DNA of 64,000 nucleotides from Burkholderiales bacterium. GTDB taxonomy: Bacteria > Pseudomonadota > Gammaproteobacteria > Burkholderiales > Burkholderiaceae_C. The translations under genes were made by a program, and so were the position numbers. Location: positions 1 to 64,000 of the forward strand of contig JAUVWL010000006.1 of the NCBI GenBank assembly GCA_030604135.1, read 5' to 3'. A model generated the notes under the pieces. It had not been told where the DNA came from and did not search any database. It saw only the letters and a list, made by a program, of their open reading frames with translations. This document shows positions 5,466 through 17,943 of this stretch, one piece after another (the first letter of the stretch is position 1; each line of letters starts with the position of its first letter).

Positions 5466-6593
5466 TCACCCCATATGCAACCAGCGCGTCGCCACATAGG
5501 ACAGCGCAGCCACCCACGTCATGGTCAGGAACCACGACACCACCTGCCCTGCCGCCGCTGGAATGGCGGCCATCAGGCGCAACCAGAACCTCGGAGGACT
5601 CATGGCCATGCTCAGTGCCCAGCCATGGCCGATTCCCCAGAGCAGATACCCTGGCGAAAGCTCATGCCACAAGCCGGCACAGACGAAGGCCAGGAAGATG
5701 CCCTTGCGGGCCGAGCCAGTCGAGCGGACAAAGGGTTTGAACAGGTAGGTTCCGATGAACCAGCTCAGTGACATGTGCCACCGCTGCCAGAACTCCCTGA
5801 TGGACGTGGCCAGGTAGGGCCGGTTGAAGTTCTCGGGCAGGACCGCACCCACCATGGCACCACATGCAATGGCCAGCAGTGTGTAACCTGAAAAGTCGAA
5901 GTAGAGCGCGGCGAAGCTGAGGTACATGTCGCCAATGACGCCCACATGTTCCACCGTGCCGACCTCTTTGCCCAGCCCCCGCAGCCAGGGTGCCAGGACA
6001 AAGAGGGCCGCCGCGCCCCAGCCGATTTTCAGAAAGATCTCGACCGCCTTTCGCCACGACATCACCGGTGCCGATACAGCATTTTTCCAGGGCTGCATGC
6101 CATGAATGGGACCTGCGCTGAAGGCTGGCAGAAATGTGAGGGTCGCCAGGGCGTAGAGGGTGTCGAAACGCCGCTGTGCCAATGATTCCTTGAGGATGAC
6201 GTAGGACTTGACGACAAAGAACGAGGCACCCAGGCTCCAGAAGACGTTCTCCACACCCAGCCGCCCCACCACCCCGAACAGGGAGGGGATGTCCAGGTGT
6301 TGCCCGGCCCACAGCTGGATGTTCATGGGTACCAGACCCACAAACACCAGCCAGGGCCAATGACCGACGGACGACGCGACTCGACCCCGCAGCCAGAGGT
6401 ACAGCACAACCATCAGCATCACCTGCGCAAACAGGTAGATGAACAGGACGGGGTTGGCCACGTACAACAAGACTATGTTGCAAGCCACCAGCGTGCGCAG
6501 TGCCCCCAGGGTCGCGCCCGTCGCGCGGATCAACCAGTAAAGCGAGGCGATGAACAGGTAGAGAAAGAGTGTGACCTCAAGGCCCAGGATCAT
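5466..6593 (-). CDS. MBOAT-family membrane O-acyltransferase (DltB/AlgI-like)
   Basis: This 375-residue polytopic membrane protein has hydrophobic segments along its whole length. The MBOAT signature lies in the region R-E-F-W-Q-R-W-H-M-S-L-S-W-F and in C-A-G-L-W-H-E-L-S-P-G-Y, which carries the expected catalytic His at about 310 and a second His at about 323. Such proteins pass an acyl group from the cytoplasm to an acceptor outside. The start at 6593 overlaps the stop of the upstream SGNH gene (ATGA), so the two are co-translated. With the dedicated acyl carrier protein and KASIII upstream, the donor is probably acyl-ACP, as in the Dlt pathway (inference). Confidence 0.9.
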   Translation of the reverse strand: MILGLEVTLFLYLFIASLYWLIRATGATLGALRTLVACNIVLLYVANPVLFIYLFAQVMLMVVLYLWLRGRVASSVGHWPWLVFVGLVPMNIQLWAGQHLDIPSLFGVVGRLGVENVFWSLGASFFVVKSYVILKESLAQRRFDTLYALATLTFLPAFSAGPIHGMQPWKNAVSAPVMSWRKAVEIFLKIGWGAAALFVLAPWLRGLGKEVGTVEHVGVIGDMYLSFAALYFDFSGYTLLAIACGAMVGAVLPENFNRPYLATSIREFWQRWHMSLSWFIGTYLFKPFVRSTGSARKGIFLAFVCAGLWHELSPGYLLWGIGHGWALSMAMSPPRFWLRLMAAIPAAAGQVVSWFLTMTWVAALSYVATRWLHMG

Positions 6594-7636
6594 GATTCGG
6601 GTCCAGTCTCGCCCAGGGCGGCTTCGCCATTTCGGGCGGCGATGTCGGTCAGGACCGAGCCCAACCATTCGCTGTATAGCCGTCTGGCAGGGGCATCCAT
6701 GTGCCCCTTGTCAACAAAACCTGCCCAGCTGCTGCGCACGACCTCCGCAGGCGGATAGACAAACTCGGGTATTCGCGACCGAATCTCGTCGATGGCCCGT
6801 GGCGACAAGGGAGGCTGAAACGCGCGCCAGTGCACGCCGACCAACACGGTCATGCCGTGCTTCGCTGCCAAGGCGCGCATGCGCTGCAGAAAGTAGAGTT
6901 CCACCTCAGTGCGGGCCGACGCCCGCCAGCGGAACGTGTCATCGAAGGCGGTGCCCAGATCGCCAAAACGCTGCTGGTAGATTCTTTTCTGATGCGCAAT
7001 GGCGCGCTCGTGGTCCGGCGCGGTCAAGAAAGAAGCATCGCCCAGGCAGACCTTGTCCGCCGCCTGTGGTGCGCTGCCAAAGACGTGTTTCCAGGCTTGC
7101 GCCGAGAGCGCGTGCTTGACTGACGAGTCCAGTTTGCGCAACTGGTTGAGAACAACGAAGTGCAGGCGCTCCAGCAAGGGCATGCTCGGCACGGCTTGCA
7201 GGTACATCCAGGCATCGCTGTAGCGCATGAAACCCGCACTTCGCAGCACTGGCAACCGGCCTTGCGCACGACCGGAAAGGCGGTCCTGGCTCAGCTCCAC
7301 CAGGACGAACTGCGGTCTGATGCCGGCATCCACCACGTCGCGAAGGATCCGGTACGAGCGCTCGACACTTCTGCGCACACGCCCCAGGTTGTAGGCATGG
7401 TGGACAAGCCCACCCGATGCCTGCTCAAGTGCCTCGGGGTCGAAACCCATCAAGACGCGCGAACTGCCCAGGGCCACAAAGTCGGTTGACTCTGGCAGGT
7501 GGGCCAGTTGATGCACCGAGCACGTCTGCAATTCGGCAACGAAGGCATGTCGGAACCGAGGCTGATCCGACCACCAGATAAACGCTGACAACGCCAGCAG
7601 GACCAGGCCTGGTGGTATCCAGCGTGCAACACGCAT
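6590..7636 (-). CDS. DltD/SGNH-like membrane-anchored acyl-transfer protein
   Basis: This 348-residue protein has an N-terminal transmembrane anchor (residues about 6-23) and a large extracytoplasmic part. A-L-G-S-S-R at about 55-60 supplies the nucleophile Ser block of SGNH-like enzymes. V-D-K-G-H-M-D near residue 315 supplies the Asp/His pair. Proteins of this shape sit next to MBOAT genes (DltD, AlgJ/AlgX, PatB) and complete acyl transfer in the periplasm. It starts 2 bases after the acyl carrier protein stop and ends inside the MBOAT start codon. The acceptor cannot be told from sequence. Confidence 0.8.
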   Translation of the reverse strand: MRVARWIPPGLVLLALSAFIWWSDQPRFRHAFVAELQTCSVHQLAHLPESTDFVALGSSRVLMGFDPEALEQASGGLVHHAYNLGRVRRSVERSYRILRDVVDAGIRPQFVLVELSQDRLSGRAQGRLPVLRSAGFMRYSDAWMYLQAVPSMPLLERLHFVVLNQLRKLDSSVKHALSAQAWKHVFGSAPQAADKVCLGDASFLTAPDHERAIAHQKRIYQQRFGDLGTAFDDTFRWRASARTEVELYFLQRMRALAAKHGMTVLVGVHWRAFQPPLSPRAIDEIRSRIPEFVYPPAEVVRSSWAGFVDKGHMDAPARRLYSEWLGSVLTDIAARNGEAALGETGPES

Positions 7637-7638
7637 CC

Positions 7639-7884
7639 TCAGGCCGTCTGCAGGATTTCGATCAGACGCACCACCCTGAAGTCGTCGAAGGTCTCATCGA
7701 TGGCGTCCAGAGACCCACCGTGCAGCTGCTCCAGCTCGAACAGGAAGTTCATGGAGTCCAGCGAGTCAATCACCTTGTCCTTGATGAGGTGAACCTCAGG
7801 GGTCACTTTGCCGGACAGCCCGGGCGTGGTCTTTTCGAGCGCGGCCTTGATCATGGCCAGCGCTTGTTCTTCGGTCATTTTCAT
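7639..7884 (-). CDS. Dedicated acyl carrier protein
   Basis: This 81-residue acidic protein has the phosphopantetheine attachment motif D40-S41-L42 in V-I-D-S-L-D-S-M, followed by the F-x-x-E-L-E helix. It is not the housekeeping AcpP, whose motif context is L-G-A-D-S-L-D-T-V-E. Its place between a KASIII-type enzyme and an SGNH/MBOAT pair indicates that it carries a specific acyl group for export. It starts 20 bases after the KASIII gene ends. Confidence 0.92.
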   Translation of the reverse strand: MKMTEEQALAMIKAALEKTTPGLSGKVTPEVHLIKDKVIDSLDSMNFLFELEQLHGGSLDAIDETFDDFRVVRLIEILQTA

Positions 7885-7904
7885 GTCATTACCCAGTAGA
7901 AAGG

Positions 7905-8906
7905 TCAGGGGCGAAAGCGGACCACAGCCGAAGCCCAGGACAGTCCGACACCAAAGCCGGACAGCAAAAGTGTACGGCCCGCCAACTCGCCGCGTTCGTC
8001 GAGCTCGGCGAGCAGCAACGGAATGGTCGAGGAAACCGTGTTGCCGTACCGGTCCATGTTCTTGAGCAACTTGTCGGAGGGAATATCGGCCCTACGCGCC
8101 AGGGCGTCGAGCATGTAGATGGACCCCTGATGCAGTGCAAACCAGTCGATGTCGGCCAGCTGACAGCCGGCCTTGCGCAAACAGGCATCGATGCTGGTCG
8201 GCACGCGCGACATCACGAAGTTGAACACGGCGCGCCCCCGCATGTGCAGCCGAAGCGACTCGCGGTCATGGCTCGCCACCTGGCTGTCTTCAAGCAGGCT
8301 GACCAACGGGCGGGCTGCTCCAGATGCTGGCACCTCTATGGCGTCGCCGCCACTGCCATCCGTTCCGAAGTCCGTGGCGAGCGTCTCGCTGCGGCCCGGT
8401 TCTGCCTTGATCCAGGTGGCAGTGGCTGCATCGCCAAAGATGCAGTTCGTGTCCTTGTCTTCCTTTGCCATGATGCGCGAGTAGGGGTCGCAAGTCACCA
8501 GAATGCCGTGCTTGAGGCCCGCTCTCTCAAGAAACCCCTGGACGATTTCAAGCCCATAGACGTAGCCCGAACAACCCAGGCTGATGTCGAACGACGCCAC
8601 GGATGCCGGCAGTCCCAGTTCGTGGGCTATGCCGGGGGCGTTGTGGGGAATGCGCCGGTCCGGGTTCTGGGTCACACACACCAGCAGGTCCACGTCATTC
8701 GGCTGCAAGTCCGGGTTGGCCTGCATCAGGCGTCGACAGGCATCCACCGCCAGCGAGATGCCGGTCTGACCAGCAGCCAGGATGTGTCGGCTGCGCAGGC
8801 CGACCTTCTCCGCAACGAAACCGGGGTCCGCGCCTGTCGCAGCCGCAATGTCATCGGCGGACTGGGTCAGAGCCGGCACCGAGTAGGCAATGGCTTCAAT
8901 GGACAT
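7905..8906 (-). CDS. 3-oxoacyl-ACP synthase III family protein (FabH-like)
   Basis: This 333-residue thiolase-fold protein carries the KASIII catalytic triad: Cys112 in S-L-G-C-S-G-Y, His259 in F-A-L-H-Q-G, and Asn289 in R-Y-G-N-T-V-S-S. KASIII enzymes condense an acyl-CoA with malonyl-ACP. Because the next gene is a dedicated ACP, I infer that it makes a special short acyl or oxoacyl group on that carrier rather than priming bulk fatty acid synthesis. Its start overlaps the end of the upstream gene by 11 bases. Confidence 0.92.
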   Translation of the reverse strand: MSIEAIAYSVPALTQSADDIAAATGADPGFVAEKVGLRSRHILAAGQTGISLAVDACRRLMQANPDLQPNDVDLLVCVTQNPDRRIPHNAPGIAHELGLPASVASFDISLGCSGYVYGLEIVQGFLERAGLKHGILVTCDPYSRIMAKEDKDTNCIFGDAATATWIKAEPGRSETLATDFGTDGSGGDAIEVPASGAARPLVSLLEDSQVASHDRESLRLHMRGRAVFNFVMSRVPTSIDACLRKAGCQLADIDWFALHQGSIYMLDALARRADIPSDKLLKNMDRYGNTVSSTIPLLLAELDERGELAGRTLLLSGFGVGLSWASAVVRFRP

Positions 8907-9570
8907 TCAACTCCTTGGGTGACTTGAAGGCAAACGTGACGAAACCCCGGCACACCTCGGCACAGGCGTCATCTTCAATCACGGCCTCCACCAGCGACTG
9001 GTATTGCTGGCCCGAGCGCCCGACGCGCCGGCACATGATCCGAACCCTGCCCGCGAGCAGAGACGGCCAACCGCCCTGCGGCAATGGAAACCGGCGAATA
9101 CCGGTGAACCAGACATCGTGGACCTCGGGGGCCAGTTCCTCGTGCAAGGACTTGATGGCCTGCACCAGCACATTGAGCACAGACTCGAAGTCCCCATTCT
9201 CGGTATGGAACTGGTAGATCGCGTTGAGCGGCGACTCAAGCGCGACCAGAGCTACGCCCATGCGCATGGGTGCATCTGCCCTGGGCGCCGGATCCGGCAG
9301 TTCGACAATGTCCCAAGCTTGTGCCGCCGCCCCGCCGAACTCCACGCGCCCCACCACGGCATCGTCAGCGGCGTCCGCTACCGATGTCCGCAACGCAAGG
9401 CGGTTGCAACTGATGCGACGAAAGCTTGCCGAAACCAGGTGGGCGTCTTGGCCCACCAATTGGTCGGCCGCACGCGCCATCATTTGGGTACCTTGTACAT
9501 ACGTCCGTGCGCCGCGGAGGAAGACTTCAATTTCGGTCAAGATGCACTGTCGTTGGGGGACTCTTGCCAT
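8896..9570 (-). CDS. Unrecognised protein, first gene of the acyl-export operon
   Basis: The 224-residue frame opens the operon. I do not recognise the family. It has no signal peptide or membrane segment. A central hydrophobic strand (M-G-V-A-L-V-A-L) and a C-terminal segment V-E-A-V-I-E-D-D-A-C-A-E-V-C-R-G-F-V-T-F-A-F would suit a hotdog-fold thioesterase or dehydratase, which is only a guess. The stated ATG at 9570 lacks a ribosome binding site and is overlapped by a promoter-like element. The TTG at 9540 (codon 11) is an alternative start. It overlaps the KASIII gene by 11 bases, so it is part of the same operon. Confidence 0.7.
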   Translation of the reverse strand: MARVPQRQCILTEIEVFLRGARTYVQGTQMMARAADQLVGQDAHLVSASFRRISCNRLALRTSVADAADDAVVGRVEFGGAAAQAWDIVELPDPAPRADAPMRMGVALVALESPLNAIYQFHTENGDFESVLNVLVQAIKSLHEELAPEVHDVWFTGIRRFPLPQGGWPSLLAGRVRIMCRRVGRSGQQYQSLVEAVIEDDACAEVCRGFVTFAFKSPKELNVH

Positions 9571-9571
9571 G

Positions 9572-9600
9572 AGTATAAGTAGCGAAAAAATCCGTGTCCT
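9572..9600 (-). promoter_or_regulatory. Candidate promoter of the acyl-export operon
   Basis: On the minus strand AGGACA (9600-9595) and TATACT (9577-9572) are separated by 17 bases, giving 4/6 and 5/6 matches to sigma-70 hexamers. Transcription would start near 9565, inside the annotated first codons. That argues for a downstream start such as TTG at 9540. Confidence 0.35.
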
Positions 9601-9649
9601 TTTGACTTATGCTTCCCGGCCACCGCTTGCCTGAAGAAGAGACGCCCGA

Positions 9650-9976
9650 GTGGTGACACGAAAAAGCCATCATGTCTACGTCGTCGAGCTGCACCCCGAG
9701 GTGCTGCAGGAGCCGCGCTTTCGGCGCTGCAACCCGCACTACGTCGAGGGCAGGCCCTGTGTCTATGTGGGCATGACCGGACTGGACCCAGACCTGCGTT
9801 TTGACCGGCACAAGGCCGGCATCCAGGCCAACGCCTTCGTGACGAAGTACGGCCTGCGTCTGTTGCCCGACCTGTACGAGGGCTTCAACCCCATGGGTTA
9901 CGACGAGGCCGCCGAGCGGGAAGTGGAGATTGGCATCGACCTGCGCTCGGCCGGGTTTGGGGTGTGGCAGGCGTGA
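9650..9976 (+). CDS. GIY-YIG-like small protein
   Basis: This 108-residue protein contains H-H-V-Y-V-V-E-L near the N-terminus and C-V-Y-V-G-M-T-G at about 36-43, then R-F-D-R-H-K-A-G and a Glu in A-E-R-E-V-E-I-G. These are in the order of the GIY, YIG, Arg and Glu elements of GIY-YIG nucleases, though the first two motifs are further apart than usual. A conserved C-terminus, V-W-Q-A, is seen. The GTG at 9650 is the first plausible start. It is divergent from the acyl-export operon. Nuclease activity is uncertain. Confidence 0.65.
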   Translation: MVTRKSHHVYVVELHPEVLQEPRFRRCNPHYVEGRPCVYVGMTGLDPDLRFDRHKAGIQANAFVTKYGLRLLPDLYEGFNPMGYDEAAEREVEIGIDLRSAGFGVWQA

Positions 9977-11351: not shown

Positions 11352-12305
11352 TCAGTGCCTGATCACCTGCCGGATGGTGGTGGCCAGCTCGGATGCCACA
11401 AATTTGGCCACATAGGCATCGGCCCCGACTGAACTCACATGCGCCTCGTTGGCCGTGCCCGTCAGCGATGAGTGGATGACCACCGGAATCGAACTGAAGC
11501 GGGCGTCGCTCTTGATGTTGCGGGTCAGGGTGAAGCCATCCATCACCGGCATTTCCAGGTCGGTCAGCACCACCGCCACCTTGTCTTTTGCCGTCTTGCC
11601 TTCGGCATGCGCTTCTGCTTCGATGGCTTGCAGGCGCTCCCAGGCCTCCTGACCGGTCTTGGTCATGACGTAGGCGGCGCCCATTGCATTGAGCCCTTGC
11701 TCGATCATCATGCGGGCCACAGGAGAATCGTCAGCGGCCAGGATGATGCTGCCATTGGGCAGGTTCACCGCGGCACCCACCGATTGCGGGGTGATGTCTT
11801 CCGTGGCCGTGGGCATCACATTGCGCAGAATCTGCTCCACGTCGAGCACCTGCACCAGGCGCGACTGATCGCTGTGGCCATCCAGTTTGGCGATGCTGGT
11901 CACCAGATCACCGCCGTTGCCTTCGGCGGCCAGAACGTCGCTCCAGTTCAGGCGCACAATTTCGTCCACCTCCTCCAGGGCAAAGGCCTGCGTGGTGCGG
12001 GCGTATTCGGTCACCATCAGGATGGTCAAGCCACGCTTGGGGTTGCAGCCGACCACGGCCGGCAGATCAATGACAGGAATGATCTGGCCCCGGATATTGG
12101 CCACGCCCAGCACGTTGGGCGGTGCGTTGGCGATGGCGGTGATGGTCGGCATGACCATGATCTCGCGCACCTTGAACACGTTGATGCCGTAGAGCTCGCG
12201 GTGCTCGCTGCCCGGAGCCTCGCCCAGGCGAAACAGCATCAGCTCGAACTTGTTGTTGCCGGTGAGGTTGGTGCGCTCGGTGGCGTCGTGCAACGATGTG
12301 CTCAT
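11352..12305 (-). CDS. cheV: CheV chemotaxis coupling protein
   Basis: This 317-residue protein has an N-terminal CheW domain (residues about 15-170, E-L-Y-G-I-N-V-F-K-V-R-E-I-M and G-V-A-N-I-R-G-Q-I-I-P-V-I-D-L). It also has a C-terminal receiver domain with the phospho-acceptor Asp in V-L-T-D-L-E-M-P-V-M-D-G-F and a Lys near the end. CheV couples chemoreceptors to CheA and its receiver tunes adaptation. No other chemotaxis genes are adjacent, which is common for cheV. The start is the ATG at 12305. The frame extends further upstream without support. Confidence 0.95.
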   Translation of the reverse strand: MSTSLHDATERTNLTGNNKFELMLFRLGEAPGSEHRELYGINVFKVREIMVMPTITAIANAPPNVLGVANIRGQIIPVIDLPAVVGCNPKRGLTILMVTEYARTTQAFALEEVDEIVRLNWSDVLAAEGNGGDLVTSIAKLDGHSDQSRLVQVLDVEQILRNVMPTATEDITPQSVGAAVNLPNGSIILAADDSPVARMMIEQGLNAMGAAYVMTKTGQEAWERLQAIEAEAHAEGKTAKDKVAVVLTDLEMPVMDGFTLTRNIKSDARFSSIPVVIHSSLTGTANEAHVSSVGADAYVAKFVASELATTIRQVIRH

Positions 12306-12423
12306 GCGGGTGTGCTCCAGAATGGACTCAGGACAGGATACGGGCCCGGGACAGGCGCGCATTGGTCGATGAACCCTGGCAACACCCCGCATTTCCAGGC
12401 TTTGTCCGGGCCGGGTGCTGGGT

Positions 12424-13635
12424 TCAGCCGCCCGTCTTGCGGGCCGCCTCGTCATCCACTGTCTGCTGCACCACACGGTAGAACGCATCCCTTGCCGCCC
12501 GGGTCTCGGGGTGGCTGGCACCCCCTGCCCAGTTGGAGTTGGAGGCGATCACCAGCTTGCGCTGGGGGTCGATGAAGATGCCCTGACCGAAGATGCCGCG
12601 GGCAGCGAAGCTGCCGTCGTCGTAGGTCCACCACTGGTAGCCATAGCCGCTGCCCGGCACGCCGATGCCGGTGCGGGTGGTGGTGGCCTCGTGCAACCAG
12701 CCCTCGGGCACGATGCTCTGGCCGTTGGCCTGGGCTCCGCCGAGGATGAACTGTCCGAAACGGGCGTAGTCGCGCGTGGCGGCCTGGATGCAGCAACCGC
12801 TGATCTCCTGACCGGTCTTGCTCAGGATCCAGGTGGCCTTCTGCTCCATGCCGGCGGGAATCCAGACTTTTTCGGACAGGTAGTCGGCCAGGTGCCTGCC
12901 GGTGGCGCGCATCACCAGCACACCCACCAGGTTGGTCTCGCCCGTGCTGTAGAGCCAGCGCGTGCCGGCAGGTTCGGCGCGCGGCAGCTTGCGCAGGAAG
13001 CTCACCAGGGCATCGACGCCGGGCTCGGGCTGGTGGTTGTTGAATCGGGCCACATCGGAGTTGGGGTCGCCGTAGTCCTCGTTCCAGTCGATGCCCGAGG
13101 TCATGGTCAGCAACTGCCGGACGCTCACGTCGTCGTAGGCCGAACCTTTCATTTCCTCGATGTAGTCACTGACCCTGTCGTCCATGCTCCGGATGTGGCC
13201 GTCCTTCACCGCTGCGCCGACCAGGGTGGAGGTGATGGACTTGGCCACCGAGAAACTGGTCCAGCGGCCGTTGGCGTCGAAATCCAGTCCGTAGCGCTCC
13301 AGCCGCACCCGACCGTCGTGAACGATGACGAGGGCGGCACTGCGCTGCGACTGCATGTAGGCATCGATATCGATGGGCAGCGCCAGCGGCGGGCCGGGTG
13401 GCAGGGGCGACGGCGTGTCGCCAGCCTCGATGACGCGGTGTTTGGCCAGAAAGGGCAAGCGGTCCAGCGCGCGGAAGGCGGCGTCGCGCTGCGACTGGTT
13501 CCAGAACAGCACGTCGCGGTCGGTGGGGAAATGGGCCAGGAAGCCGCGGGTTTCCTTGTCCAGGCTCAGCCAGATGGCGGTGCCAGCGGCCACTGCGACG
13601 ATCAGGCCACCGAGGGCCAAGGTCTTGAGTTTCAA
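12424..13635 (-). CDS. Serine hydrolase of the class C beta-lactamase family
   Basis: This 403-residue protein has an N-terminal membrane anchor or signal (L-A-L-G-G-L-I-V-A-V-A-A-G). The nucleophile motif S-x-x-K is S-V-A-K in W-T-S-F-S-V-A-K-S near residue 132. L-Y-S-T-G-E-T-N at about 230 fits the Y-x-N-like second motif. Members include esterases, D-peptidases and 6-aminohexanoate-dimer hydrolases, to which the L-T-M-T-S-G-I-D-W-N-E-D-Y context is close. The natural substrate cannot be given. It ends 118 bases before the CheV start, on the same strand. Confidence 0.9.
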   Translation of the reverse strand: MKLKTLALGGLIVAVAAGTAIWLSLDKETRGFLAHFPTDRDVLFWNQSQRDAAFRALDRLPFLAKHRVIEAGDTPSPLPPGPPLALPIDIDAYMQSQRSAALVIVHDGRVRLERYGLDFDANGRWTSFSVAKSITSTLVGAAVKDGHIRSMDDRVSDYIEEMKGSAYDDVSVRQLLTMTSGIDWNEDYGDPNSDVARFNNHQPEPGVDALVSFLRKLPRAEPAGTRWLYSTGETNLVGVLVMRATGRHLADYLSEKVWIPAGMEQKATWILSKTGQEISGCCIQAATRDYARFGQFILGGAQANGQSIVPEGWLHEATTTRTGIGVPGSGYGYQWWTYDDGSFAARGIFGQGIFIDPQRKLVIASNSNWAGGASHPETRAARDAFYRVVQQTVDDEAARKTGG

Positions 13636-13720: not shown

Positions 13721-14141
13721 TCAGAGCCTGCGCAGTCTTTCCAGCCGCACGGCGTTGGATTCGTCGGTCACAACGACCATCAGGCTGCCAGGGTCGGAGG
13801 GCAACAAGAGCGCCGTGAAGCCCGGTGCCAGAGGGCGCCGGGGGTCATCACCCTCGGGCAGGACAACCCGGTAATTGTTGAACACGGTACCCGACTCTCC
13901 CTCGAACAAGGCCAGCGGGCAACCATATCGGGTGTCACCGGGTCCAGCAGGGACAGGAGGTTGGGTTCGTCCAAGCCCATGCCGAGGCGGGCCAGTGGGC
14001 CGAAGCCGGATTCATCTTGAGCATGCGCCCGTCGGGTCGCATGCGCACCAGACCGACCGGCGCCAGGTGCAGGAACTCAAGCAGCGCAGCACCGTTCATG
14101 GGCAGGTTGTGCACCGTGTCCGACCCAGGGGCTGTGGTCAC
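13721..14141 (-). pseudogene. PAS-domain protein broken by two -1 frameshifts
   Basis: Three overlapping frames together encode one PAS-like domain of about 140 residues. The first (from GTG 14141) gives L-L-E-F-L-H-L-A-P-V-G-L-V-R-M-R-P-D-G. The second gives L-G-M-G-L-D-E-P-N-L-L-S-L-L-D-P-V. The third, from about 13915, gives G-T-V-F-N-N-Y-R-V-V-L-P-E-G and ends S-L-M-V-V-V-T-D-E-S-N-A-V. Restoring one base near 14010 and one near 13925 rejoins them. This is either a recent pseudogene or a sequence error. The start overlaps the stop of the PYP-like ORF (GTGA), so it belongs to the photosensory operon. Confidence 0.65.
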
Positions 14142-14458
14142 CCGGTTGCTCCACGGCGCTGGGCGAGCACATAGGGCAGCACCTCGCCCAGCGAAGTGCC
14201 TGCGAGCTGGGCGACATCAAAACGCCCGCCGACCCGGTGGTTGTTCATGCACGGCGTCAGCTCGATGAACAGGTGCTGTCCGATCACCTTTTGCGCCGGG
14301 AAGGCAGCGGCATCGGCCTCGGTGCGGTTGTAACGCCGCGCGCGGGCTTCCTGGTCGAATGCGATGACACCGTAAGGCAGCGCATCCAGTTGCTCGTCGG
14401 CCAGGGAGTCCAGTGTGGCCAGCAGGCCGGCGTCATCAAACGAGAGCTGTTGTGTCAT
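14138..14458 (-). CDS. Photoactive-yellow-protein-like photosensor, C-terminally short
   Basis: This 106-residue protein aligns by eye with the first 95 residues of photoactive yellow protein. L-S-F-D-D matches V-A-F-G-S-E-D. D-E-Q-L-D-A-L-P-Y-G-V-I matches D-G-Q-L-D-G-L-A-F-G-A-I. R-Y43-N-R-T-E47 matches the Tyr42/Glu46 pair that hydrogen-bonds the chromophore. V-I-G-Q-H-L-F-I-E-L-T-P-C70 matches the chromophore-binding Cys69. The usual last two beta strands (about 25 residues) are missing. The gene starts 9 bases after the LOV kinase stop and so is likely co-transcribed. If functional, it would bind p-coumaric acid and sense blue light. Confidence 0.75.
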   Translation of the reverse strand: MTQQLSFDDAGLLATLDSLADEQLDALPYGVIAFDQEARARRYNRTEADAAAFPAQKVIGQHLFIELTPCMNNHRVGGRFDVAQLAGTSLGEVLPYVLAQRRGATG

Positions 14459-14467
14459 GGTGACAGT

Positions 14468-15937
14468 TCATGATGGGTGCTGGCCGGTGGGGCGAACCAG
14501 ATGCAAGGTGAAGGTGCTGCCCTGTCCGGGCGTGCTGTTGACATCGACACGGCCGTTCATGCGCTCGACCATCTCCTTGACCAGTGAGAGTCCAAGACCG
14601 GTACCCGGGATGGGGCCACCGGGGTTGGCGCGGAAAAACCGGGTGAACAGGCGTCCGATCTCCTCGTCGGACAGCCCGATACCCTGGTCACTGACCTCCA
14701 GGGTGCATTCGCCCTCGGCCGAAGAGGCTGCCACCCTGCAACACACCCGACCACCGTTGGGCGAATACTTGACCGCGTTGGACATCAGGTTGATGACCAC
14801 CTGTTCCAGCCGCGCCGCATGCCCGAGCACCCACTGGGGCGAATCGGGCAGTTCGAGAACCAGTTGGTGCCGGTTTTCCGGCATCTCGATCACTTCGCTG
14901 GCCTGGCGAACCACGTGACACAGGTCGACCGGCTCCAGCGCGAAGGCCTCCCGGCCCCGCTCATCGAGCTGGGCCAAGTCCAGCAGATCGTCCAGCAGGC
15001 CACCCAGGCGCACCGCCTGTTTGAGCACCGTCTCCAGAAGTGGACGTGCCTGTTCGGGGTTGTAGTTGCGCATCAGCATGAGCTCGGTGAATCCCCGGAT
15101 GCTGCCCAGCGGGGTGCGCAACTCGTGGGCCGCCGTGGCCAGAAAGTGGTCGCGACTGGCCTGCTGCTGCCGCTGCTGGGTGACATCGCGCAGCACCGCC
15201 ATTTGTTCGCCGGTCAGCGAACCGACCGATGAGGCCGACACCTCGATCACCCGTTGCTGTGGACGACGCAACTCCCACAGGCAGGACTGGCCTGGTTCGG
15301 GCCAGGGCAGTTGTTCGGAGTCGACGTCCGCCAGCGTGGCCACGCGCTTCAGCAGTTGAGACAGTGAGAGCCCGAGTACCTGCCCATCGCCCAGGCCAAG
15401 CAGCGCCACACCGGCCGGACTGCACAGGGTCACGCGCCCATCGGCCGCCAGGGTCACCATGCCCATGGGATGCGAGCCAATCGCTCGCTCCAGTTCCAGC
15501 GACCGAACCTGGGACATCTCCTCGCGCTCGCGCTCGAGGGTCACATCGGTCTGGACGGCAAAAAAGTGGGTGATACGGCCGGTGGTGGCCTCACGCACAG
15601 GGCTCATCTCGACCCGGTTCCAGAACAGGCTGCCATCGCGGCGGTAGTTGCGCAGCACCACTGTGACGTCCTCACCGCGGGCAATGGCCTCGCGCAGGCG
15701 GTGCACGCCGGGCTGATCGCGGTCGCCCAGCTGCAGAAAGCCACAATTGCGCCCCAGGACTTCCTGCGCGGGATAGCCCGTCATCCGGGTGAAGCCGGTG
15801 TTGACGTAGACCAAGGGGTTGTTCGGCTGGGTCGCGTCAGACACCACCACGCCGTTGACCGTCTGTTCCATGGCACGCCAGACGATCGGGCGCACATCGG
15901 GTGGCAGGCTGAGGGCAGAAGCGGCAGGGTAGGACAT
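14468..15937 (-). CDS. LOV-domain (blue-light) sensor histidine kinase
   Basis: This is a 489-residue protein. Residues about 20-135 form a LOV domain: Cys65 in G-R-N-C-G-F-L-Q, Asn97 and Asn107 in the R-N-Y-R-R-D-G-S-L-F-W-N strand, and Gln129 in A-V-Q-T-D-V-T. These are the flavin-contacting residues. The usual Arg after the Cys-containing N-C is a Gly here. A second PAS domain covers about 145-255. HisKA has His271 in H-E-L-R-T-P. HATPase_c has the N, D-x-G-I-G-L and G-T-G-L-G-L boxes. There is no transmembrane segment, so it is cytoplasmic. No response regulator is adjacent. Confidence 0.93.
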   Translation of the reverse strand: MSYPAASALSLPPDVRPIVWRAMEQTVNGVVVSDATQPNNPLVYVNTGFTRMTGYPAQEVLGRNCGFLQLGDRDQPGVHRLREAIARGEDVTVVLRNYRRDGSLFWNRVEMSPVREATTGRITHFFAVQTDVTLEREREEMSQVRSLELERAIGSHPMGMVTLAADGRVTLCSPAGVALLGLGDGQVLGLSLSQLLKRVATLADVDSEQLPWPEPGQSCLWELRRPQQRVIEVSASSVGSLTGEQMAVLRDVTQQRQQQASRDHFLATAAHELRTPLGSIRGFTELMLMRNYNPEQARPLLETVLKQAVRLGGLLDDLLDLAQLDERGREAFALEPVDLCHVVRQASEVIEMPENRHQLVLELPDSPQWVLGHAARLEQVVINLMSNAVKYSPNGGRVCCRVAASSAEGECTLEVSDQGIGLSDEEIGRLFTRFFRANPGGPIPGTGLGLSLVKEMVERMNGRVDVNSTPGQGSTFTLHLVRPTGQHPS

Positions 15938-16194: not shown

Positions 16195-17943
16195 ATGACC
16201 GCTTCAACGGCACGCCCCTGGCACCCCACCTACGGGCAAGTGGGAATCGCTCCCGAGCTTGAATCCCTCCCTTACCGCAACCTGGCCGAACTGGTCCACG
16301 AAAGCTGCAAGAAATGGCAGACCGAGAGCCAGGTCAAGGCCGCGTTCAGCTGCGTGGTGCCCAACGGCATGAACGGGCGCCTGAGCTTTGCGCAGGTGGA
16401 CGAACTCTCGGACGCGTTTGCAGGCTACTTGCGCGCGGTGGTGGGCCTGAAGGCGGGCGACCGCGTGGCCGTGCAACTGCCCAACAGCCTGGGCTATCCG
16501 GTGGCGGCGCTGGGGGTGTTCAAGGCCGGCTGCGTGCTGGTCAACACCAACCCGCTCTACACCGAATCCGAAATGATCCACCAGTTCAACAACGCTGGCG
16601 CCCAGGTGCTGGTGATGGTGGACATGTTTGCCGACAAGCTGCCGGCGGTGCTGGCCAAGACCGGCATCAAGCAGGTGGTGCTGGCGGCGGTGTCGGAGTT
16701 CTTCCCGACCATTCCGGGCGCCATCGTGCGCGGCGTGCAGCGCTACTGGAACCGTGTGCTGCCGCCAGTGACGGCGCCGCACATCCGCCTGAAGGACGCG
16801 CTGGCCCAGGGTCGGGCCACTTTGGGCAAGACGCCGGCCCGGACCTACTGGGAAGGCGTGGGGCGCCAGGACCTGGCCTTGCTGCAGTACACCGGCGGCA
16901 CCACCGGTGTGAGCAAGGGCGCCATGCTGACGCACGACAACCTGCTGAACAACATCCAGCAGACCCGGGCCATGGGCCAGAGCCACATGGCGCTGGGCCA
17001 GGAATGTGTGCTCACAGCCTTGCCTCTCTACCACATCTTCGCCTTCACAGCCAACCTGCTGGGCTTCCTGGCCATCGGCGGGCACAACGTGCTGATACCG
17101 AACCCGCGCCCAGTGCAGAGCCTGCAGCGGGCGATGGAGAATTTCCCCATCACCTGGATGACGGGCGTGAACACGCTGTTCAACGGCCTGCTCAACGAAG
17201 AGTGGTTCGTGGCCTACCCGCCCAAGACGCTCAAGGCCTCCATTTCGGGCGGTACCGCGCTGCACAGTGCTGTGGCCCAGCGCTGGCGCGAACTGACCAA
17301 GACGCCGATTGCCGAGGGTTACGGCCTGACCGAGACCTCTCCCGTGGTGAGTTTCAACCCGCTGACCGGCACACCGCGCGACGGCAGCATCGGCATTCCG
17401 GCGCCGGGCACCGATGTGCGTCTGGTCGGCGACGACGGGCTGGATGTGGCGCCTGGCGCCCCGGGCGAGATCTGGGTGCGGGGGCCACAGGTGATGCAGG
17501 GCTACTGGAACGCCGGGGAGGAAACCGCCAAGGTCATGAACGACGGCTGGTTTGCCACTGGTGACGTGGCGGTGATGGACGAGGCGGGCTTCCTGCGCAT
17601 CGTCGACCGGAAGAAGGACATGGTCCTGGTCTCGGGCTTCAACGTCTACCCCAACGAGGTCGAGGACGTCATCGCCGACATGGATCATGTGCTGGAAGTG
17701 GCTGTCATCGGGGTGCCGGACGACAAGACCGGCGAGGCGGTTCGCGCCTATGTGGTACAGAACCCCGACCACAGCAAGGAAGTCATGCCGGCCGACGTGA
17801 TCGCGCATTGCAAGCAGCACCTGGCGGCCTACAAGGTGCCCAAGCTGGTGGTGGTGCGCGACGAACTGCCCAAGAGCCCGATCGGCAAGGTGCTGCGCAA
17901 AGACTTGCGCAAGGCCGTGGCCGAAGAGATGAACCGGGGCTGA
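16195..17943 (+). CDS. fadD: Long-chain fatty-acid--CoA ligase
   Basis: This 582-residue AMP-forming synthetase has the P-loop-like motif Y-T-G-G-T-T-G-V-S-K-G-A near residue 228. It also has the E-G-Y-G-L-T-E-T-S-P-V motif and the hinge/C-terminal block D-R-K-K-D-M-V-L-V-S-G-F-N-V-Y-P-N-E-V-E-D. The last Lys-containing segment, P-K-S-P-I-G-K-V-L-R-K, is intact. Length and N-terminal pattern match FadD, which activates fatty acids to acyl-CoA for beta-oxidation. It is divergent from the LOV kinase and is followed after 32 bases by a symporter gene. Confidence 0.95.
   Translation: MTASTARPWHPTYGQVGIAPELESLPYRNLAELVHESCKKWQTESQVKAAFSCVVPNGMNGRLSFAQVDELSDAFAGYLRAVVGLKAGDRVAVQLPNSLGYPVAALGVFKAGCVLVNTNPLYTESEMIHQFNNAGAQVLVMVDMFADKLPAVLAKTGIKQVVLAAVSEFFPTIPGAIVRGVQRYWNRVLPPVTAPHIRLKDALAQGRATLGKTPARTYWEGVGRQDLALLQYTGGTTGVSKGAMLTHDNLLNNIQQTRAMGQSHMALGQECVLTALPLYHIFAFTANLLGFLAIGGHNVLIPNPRPVQSLQRAMENFPITWMTGVNTLFNGLLNEEWFVAYPPKTLKASISGGTALHSAVAQRWRELTKTPIAEGYGLTETSPVVSFNPLTGTPRDGSIGIPAPGTDVRLVGDDGLDVAPGAPGEIWVRGPQVMQGYWNAGEETAKVMNDGWFATGDVAVMDEAGFLRIVDRKKDMVLVSGFNVYPNEVEDVIADMDHVLEVAVIGVPDDKTGEAVRAYVVQNPDHSKEVMPADVIAHCKQHLAAYKVPKLVVVRDELPKSPIGKVLRKDLRKAVAEEMNRG

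Follow-up and report, generated by a model that had tools for sequence, protein, structure and literature searches.

The 64,000-nucleotide stretch of DNA analysed here (hereafter the window), which corresponds to positions 1 to 64,000 of contig JAUVWL010000006.1 in assembly GCA_030604135.1 of a Burkholderiales bacterium, very probably carries a decayed version of a blue-light operon, in which the gene for a LOV histidine kinase is intact and constrained, the gene for a photoactive yellow protein (PYP) is truncated, that for a stand-alone PAS protein is broken in its reading frame, and the p-coumarate-coenzyme A (CoA) ligase is gone. This reading draws on the anatomy of the locus with its truncation and frame changes, on the scores of lyase and ligase searches, on gene order in relatives, and on selection acting on the kinase between species. 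The original prediction had placed two blue-light chemistries, flavin and p-coumarate, beside a kinase; that arrangement is true of related loci, but in the window itself the PYP is truncated and the PAS gene frameshifted.

The kinase gene (14468..15937, on the minus strand, as are the other features of the locus) encodes a complete LOV-PAS-HisKA-HATPase_c histidine kinase of 489 residues. Its LOV domain (residues 20-135; 15533..15880) matches solved LOV structures, the best being PDB entry 9vf7 (E 2.1e-32), and displays Cys65, Asn97, Asn107 and Gln129, which are identical in three aligned orthologues, and the LOV motif GxNC(R)FLQ is recognizable; among the solved matches are proteins that we take to be YtvA and the Brucella LOV-HK. 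A second PAS-like linker region with approximate boundaries (about residues 141-262; 15152..15517) is indicated by two Pfam PAS stretches in the protein, and is 35% identical to the corresponding region in the related loci L039 and L040. The kinase core (14498..15154) comprises HisKA (residues 262-326; PF00512, E 2.5e-18), with His271 within the motif HELRTP, and HATPase_c (residues 373-480; PF02518, E 1.4e-28); thus, the predicted placement of these four LOV residues in a histidine kinase was borne out. In established LOV kinases, blue light leads to a flavin-cysteine adduct and thereby to altered autophosphorylation. The protein resembles known LOV-histidine kinases in its N-terminal LOV domain, its photoactive Cys and the flavin-contacting Asn/Asn/Gln, and differs from them in combining a HisKA-type core with a second PAS region, in its linkage to PYP, and in the Gly that follows the photoactive Cys at residue 66. 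This last position is occupied by Arg in three aligned solved LOV domains, where it contacts the flavin phosphate, by Gly in the related loci L103 and L106, and by Asn in L039 and L040.

A scan of contigs from the GTDB with the kinase alignment, whose patterns admitted Gly or Asn after the LOV Cys and can therefore have missed orthologues, yielded 42 relatives, the first five being close orthologues (51-86% identity), with the L104 copy cut at its own contig start. The ratio of nonsynonymous to synonymous substitution (dN/dS) of the kinase was 0.135 against L103 and 0.162 against L104, and 0.044 for the first 140 codons (the LOV part) between the window and L103. The low dN/dS against L103 shows that purifying selection acts on the LOV kinase between species. 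On contig C3, the window genome also encodes a further LOV-kinase-like protein, which is more distantly related (37% identity, E 2.5e-83).

As predicted, an open reading frame (ORF) begins 9 bases behind the kinase gene (gap 14459-14467, followed by ATG). This ORF of 106 residues (14138..14458, minus strand) retains Tyr43, Glu47 and Cys70, which align to Tyr42, Glu46 and Cys69 of PYP, and is a true, though incomplete, PYP homologue. It matched TIGR02373 over residues 8-88 (E 7.6e-15) with 55.1 bits, under the 143-bit cut-off; since intact relatives likewise fall short (63.5 and 78.9 bits) and the model covers merely 20% of PYP homologues according to the consulted part of PMC9664959, missing this cut-off is weak evidence. 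Structural matches included Ppr-PYP of R. centenum (1mzu, E 1e-10) and 2i9v (E 4.8e-9), and Pfam returned PAS_4, weakly (E 4.5e-5). We considered whether an ordinary PAS domain had been mistaken for PYP, and rejected this, as 33 of 34 and 33 of 33 PDB matches were PYP, Ppr or PYP-derived FAST; the best alignment was thus to PYP rather than to another PAS family, with Cys and Glu conserved. The Tyr/Glu pair and chromophore Cys of the original prediction were accordingly recovered by the family model, 1mzu and the alignment, albeit in an ORF that is incomplete. It is the sole PYP match in the window genome, found once by the family model and once by protein search (E<0.01).

Among the PYP ORFs of relatives, the Cys was conserved in 52/52, the Glu in 52/52 and the Tyr in 51/52. 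The strands beta4 and beta5 were likewise present in all 52 (47 loci), near the consensus segments KVRLRLL and YVLVxR, and the window ORF alone stops before both, as was also seen in an alignment with 11 relatives. It therefore falls short of the complete five-strand PAS fold of about 125 residues, which is found in the full-length PYP of Aquabacterium (L106). In addition, it carries Arg102 where the relatives have Met, at the position of Met100 of H. halophila PYP. AlphaFold modelled the window ORF aligned with 19 relatives without beta4 and beta5 and with modest scores (pLDDT 69.9, pTM 0.58), the confidence being low around Cys70 (pLDDT 61 for residues 61-70 and 53 for 71-80). The L106 protein, modelled from a 19-row alignment, gave a confident five-strand fold (pLDDT 89.1, pTM 0.83), for which the best Foldseek matches were PYP (TM-score 0.84-0.85, with 0.85 to 2phy). 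The 106-residue product would probably neither fold nor bind chromophore.

The cause of this truncation lies at the PYP/PAS junction (14075..14176, minus strand). The spacing from the PYP motif PYVL to the PAS motif FLHLAP measures 101 nucleotides (nt) in the window and 191, 191, 198 and 200 nt in L039, L040, L041 and L106, respectively; from this spacing in four relatives and a DNA alignment with three, the window is 90-99 nt shorter. Hence, a deletion of about 90-100 nt has removed the end of the pyp gene together with the beginning of the gene for the PAS protein, leaving 21 residues of the L106 protein and 27 of the L039 protein beyond the match to the window. The remainder of the stand-alone PAS gene (13721..14141, minus strand) displays homology in three frames. 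A PAS gene had been predicted to follow by a GTGA overlap; the overlap exists and the PAS homology is real, but the frame opening at this GTG stops after 68 codons. The PAS protein of Aquabacterium matches the window at 14087-13986, 13986-13924 and 13909-13748, in frames -3, -2 and -1 (E 4.9e-15), and because the homology runs on in two other frames, the gene is broken by at least two frame changes.

Intact versions of the operon were found in relatives. The isolate Aquabacterium lacunae KMB7 (L106) harbors the LOV kinase (5617-7461), PYP (7476-7862), PAS (7886-8344) and coumarate ligase (8355-9650) genes in succession. The same order of kinase, PYP, PAS and ligase is displayed by a metagenome-assembled genome (MAG) of Rubrivivax sp. 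(L105/L039, same contig), with stop/start codon overlaps among the first three genes; a MAG labelled Azohydromonas lata (L107/L040) carries kinase, PYP and PAS, again with overlapping stop and start codons, followed by the contig end, and a ligase piece on another contig. Conversely, two MAGs of the window genus, L103 (G459, 99% complete) and L104 (G422, 67% complete), encode kinases 86% identical and, from residue 72, 84% identical to that of the window, with a hydrolase gene next and no PYP. The six LOV-kinase orthologues therefore comprise three with a full-length PYP, one with a remnant (the window) and two without PYP. In the window and relatives alike, kinase, PYP and PAS lie on the same strand with tight spacing, the chromophore gene being absent from the window. 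Chance homology is excluded by the E-values and the conserved gene order in relatives, and the linkage anticipated for homologous loci was found in three of them, which points to a conserved association of LOV kinase, PYP and PAS.

With orthologues counted at E better than 1e-200, the kinase was found in 3 of 399 family genomes (the window genome, G161 and G369), in the window genome alone among 399 order genomes, in 3/67 genomes of the window genus (window, G459 and G422), in 1/42 of the Aquabacterium genus and in 2/5 of genus g38; the family and order scans scored three candidates per genome, so that orthologues can have been missed. The plasmid collection contained no LOV-kinase match at E 1e-80.

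PYP matches at E 1e-4 were obtained in 37/399 family genomes, including that of the window. A scan of the genome collection with the 106-residue ORF gave 252 pattern matches, none confirmed as a relative; a six-frame search did yield relatives. The 47 loci mentioned above consist of 40 of 48 other PYP places with flanks, 6 of 13 plasmid loci, and L106; of the 8 remaining places, 3 lay inside fetched stretches and 5 were left out of the neighbor counts, and plasmid locus L182 was inspected outside these counts. Among the 52 PYP ORFs, 45 best matched clade-C-like references and 7 matched classical PYP and were excluded. A related PAS domain was encoded by the adjacent downstream gene in 42/45 clade-C-like PYP loci, defined by the same strand, an ORF (stop to stop) that begins no more than 300 nt from the end of PYP, and a phmmer E of 1e-4 against either the stand-alone PAS protein or the PAS portion of the cyclase in L034; since the sampling favors relatives of the window ORF, such fractions are not representative of PYP in general. 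The outputs carried by these 42 neighbors were GGDEF and/or EAL in 33, a kinase core in 3, and none recognized in 6, two of the latter (L040 and L042) being cut by contig ends; the loci lacking such a neighbor were L033, L050 (at a contig end) and L070. In the three loci where the PAS clearly stood alone (L039, L041 and L106), the coumarate ligase gene came next. All 55 ORFs with a match to this PAS domain in 49 loci, two of them duplicates, were no farther than 3.5 kb from a PYP, and no match was present in 1981 ORFs of 37 other loci (L108-L144). The downstream PAS domain is therefore a candidate PYP partner. As additional observations, clade-C-like and classical PYP occur together in L036, L037, L045 and L055, L033 has an annotated BLUF gene some 4.3 kb from its PYP, and 5/13 plasmid relatives are misannotated as 'phosphonate transporter'.

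That the LOV kinase and PYP are neighbors by chance throughout, without a functional link, is unlikely, though it is the alternative that survives best. A LOV kinase lies upstream of PYP in just 3/45 clade-C-like loci (L039, L040 and L106), where most PYP neighbors are GGDEF or EAL proteins, and distant LOV kinases from 33 loci (L082-L098 and L165-L180, about 1.5 kb of flank) had no PYP or partner PAS adjoining. Nevertheless, among the six orthologues, three full-length PYP genes and one remnant are located directly downstream, stop and start codons overlap in two, and the order is common to Aquabacterium and the Rubrivivax and Azohydromonas MAGs, all of which speaks against chance.

Regarding the chromophore, the window genome (99.97% complete, 3.28% contamination) gave no match to the ammonia-lyase family PF00221 at E 1e-10, extending to the whole genome the original observation that no tyrosine ammonia-lyase is visible nearby. 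Its best match to the coumarate ligase model TIGR02372 scored 95.9 bits (locus L188), whereas three complete ligases linked to PYP reached 281.6, 275.3 and 265.9 bits and a partial one reached 177, so that by this model no ligase in the genome scores like those linked to PYP. Within the window, no coumarate ligase was detected, the only matches being weak ones at 17.5-17.9 kb and 41-42 kb. Two candidates were rejected: the divergent gene at 16195-17943, which matches long-chain fatty-acid CoA ligases, and L188 itself (G000:C31), where CoA-ligase, dehydratase-like and acyltransferase-like genes stand in a row that we presume to be an aryl-polyene-type cluster. The truncation, the lack of a PF00221 lyase and the lack of a ligase scoring like PYP-linked ones together make a light-active PYP unlikely in the window organism. 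External p-coumarate is conceivable for this organism, and the LOV-PYP operon genomes may likewise obtain it from outside, given that G461, G369 and G161 (one isolate plus two MAGs that are 83% and 90% complete) had no PF00221 match (0/3) though the ligase is present; G349, which has PYP, PAS and ligase without LOV, carries a PF00221 lyase at a distance of about 17 kb. Uptake of p-coumarate has been suggested for some bacteria in the part of PMC12826048 consulted.

These data also bear on the remaining explanations. The locus might be intact in the living organism, with the truncation and frame changes arising from assembly or sequencing errors and a working LOV-PYP-PAS operon whose ligase is perhaps encoded elsewhere; the single assembly, the clean ORF before the junction and the intact operons of relatives are compatible with this, but it is very improbable that a 90-99 nt deletion, two frame changes and a missing ligase gene should coincide by error in a 99.97% complete genome that has neither a PF00221 match nor a ligase score like those linked to PYP. 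Slightly less probable still is that the truncated PYP is made and has a new chromophore-free role, perhaps partnering the LOV kinase as a small PAS-like protein, for although its 106-codon frame is open 9 bases behind the kinase, keeps Tyr, Glu and Cys and has a high GC content at third codon positions (GC3), the two lost strands belong to a five-strand sheet in the model of the intact relative, the window model is of low confidence around Cys70, and two genomes of the same genus keep the kinase without PYP, including G422, which is just 67% complete, yet in which the kinase directly precedes the hydrolase gene.

Several points weigh against a simple decay of the operon. The first 106 pyp codons are free of stops, with a GC3 of 0.76 versus 0.80 for the kinase, so that either the decay is recent or some constraint is left, and assembly errors could in principle account for the frame changes in this single assembly, though they explain the loss of about 90 nt less easily. 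The curated TIGR02372 cut-off of 334.7 bits was passed by 0/7 genomes, including those with intact operons, and weak matches occurred in 11/14 control genomes; the absence of the ligase therefore rests on score differences, and another CoA ligase could serve PYP. The dN/dS values compare species and do not demonstrate present-day kinase activity, and no response regulator gene was identified adjoining the kinase, a CheV-like gene (CheW plus receiver) being located at 11352-12521. Lastly, synonymous divergence (dS) for the kinase was 0.75 between the window and L103, 0.73 between the window and L104, and 0.43 between L103 and L104, and for the hydrolase 0.23, 0.50 and 0.54, respectively. Because the closest pairs conflict (L103-L104 for the kinase, window-L103 for the hydrolase), the kinase locus was probably exchanged between lineages, and we refrain from proposing simple loss along the window line.

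With these points considered, the decayed operon can be described as follows. The intact order is LOV-PAS-histidine kinase, PYP, stand-alone PAS protein and p-coumarate-CoA ligase, the last of which would load the PYP chromophore. In the window, PYP has lost about its last 21-27 residues through the deletion of about 90-100 nt, and the kinase alone would now sense blue light, with the flavin-cysteinyl adduct in the LOV domain controlling autophosphorylation of His271. The least certain step, which we propose tentatively, is that in intact operons PYP may act on the LOV kinase via the PAS protein; it is suggested by a PAS domain that follows PYP in 42/45 loci, is usually fused to an output and stands alone in LOV-kinase loci, where, as this PAS has no output domain and a kinase gene lies upstream, the kinase would be supplied in trans. 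It is more doubtful whether the intact operon forms a two-chromophore device, in which a LOV kinase would be tuned in trans by PYP through PAS, and PYP loaded only with external p-coumarate would make it a coincidence detector of light and plant or algal phenolics, the window having lost the PYP arm and kept the LOV arm.

Other features of the locus and its relatives deserve mention. The flanking gene at 12424..13635 (minus strand) encodes a serine hydrolase of beta-lactamase fold (PF00144), which directly follows the LOV kinase in L103 and L104. The window genome contains two photosynthetic reaction-centre genes (PF00124; G000:C35:129023-130702); matches to this family are present in G422, G161 and G369 and absent from G459, G349 and A. 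lacunae. In both L039 and L040, a gene that we presume to be pucC-like lies upstream of the LOV kinase.

In the portions of the literature searched (including PMC12826048, PMC9664959 and PMC6848086), kinases, GGDEF and BLUF proteins are described with PYP, and no PYP operon with LOV was found, in agreement with the original view that the combination of LOV, PYP and a kinase was not known as described. Among 113 pyp operons analysed, 8 were reported to have HisKA upstream of pyp, 2 to include BLUF, both of them in Caballeronia sp. SBC2 and thus pairing a flavin protein with PYP, and 42 to contain a coumarate ligase, mostly downstream (PMC12826048, Dohmen et al. 2025); the portion of that paper covered, outside its supplement, mentions LOV six times, none about an operon, and one or other of its HisKA cases might yet be a LOV kinase. 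As far as that portion goes, the operons described here resemble those in having a single-domain PYP in a putative operon with signalling genes, and differ in the LOV domain of the kinase and in the broken state of the window copy. Clade C PYPs are described, in the part consulted, as proteins of Burkholderiales, often misannotated as 'phosphonate transporter', with frequent GGDEF neighbors and a conserved Met100 (PMC9664959, Xing, Gumerov and Zhulin 2022). The host and the Met100 kept by intact relatives agree with that description; the window protein departs from it in ending early and having Arg at the Met100 position, and the partners here are a stand-alone PAS and a LOV kinase. Membership in clade C is presumed from similarity. 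Similarly, Ppr/Ppd hybrids, in which PYP is fused to a bacteriophytochrome and to a kinase or GGDEF/EAL (PMC12826048 and PMC9664959, as far as consulted), also lead two chromophores into one signalling output, but by fusion and with red light there, and by separate genes and flavin here.

The window is thus a decayed member of a new pyp operon variant, whose intact relatives are of greater interest than the window copy. The LOV kinase remains under selection in the window and its same-genus relatives, in which the PYP arm is broken or missing, and is therefore arguably independent of PYP. The signal transduction chain of PYP is regarded as an open gap in the part of PMC12826048 consulted, and the PAS domain encoded behind PYP in 42/45 loci, with varied outputs, offers a concrete candidate partner. 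Furthermore, an isolate that carries PYP and a LOV kinase in series provides a natural case in which two blue-light chemistries may share one output.

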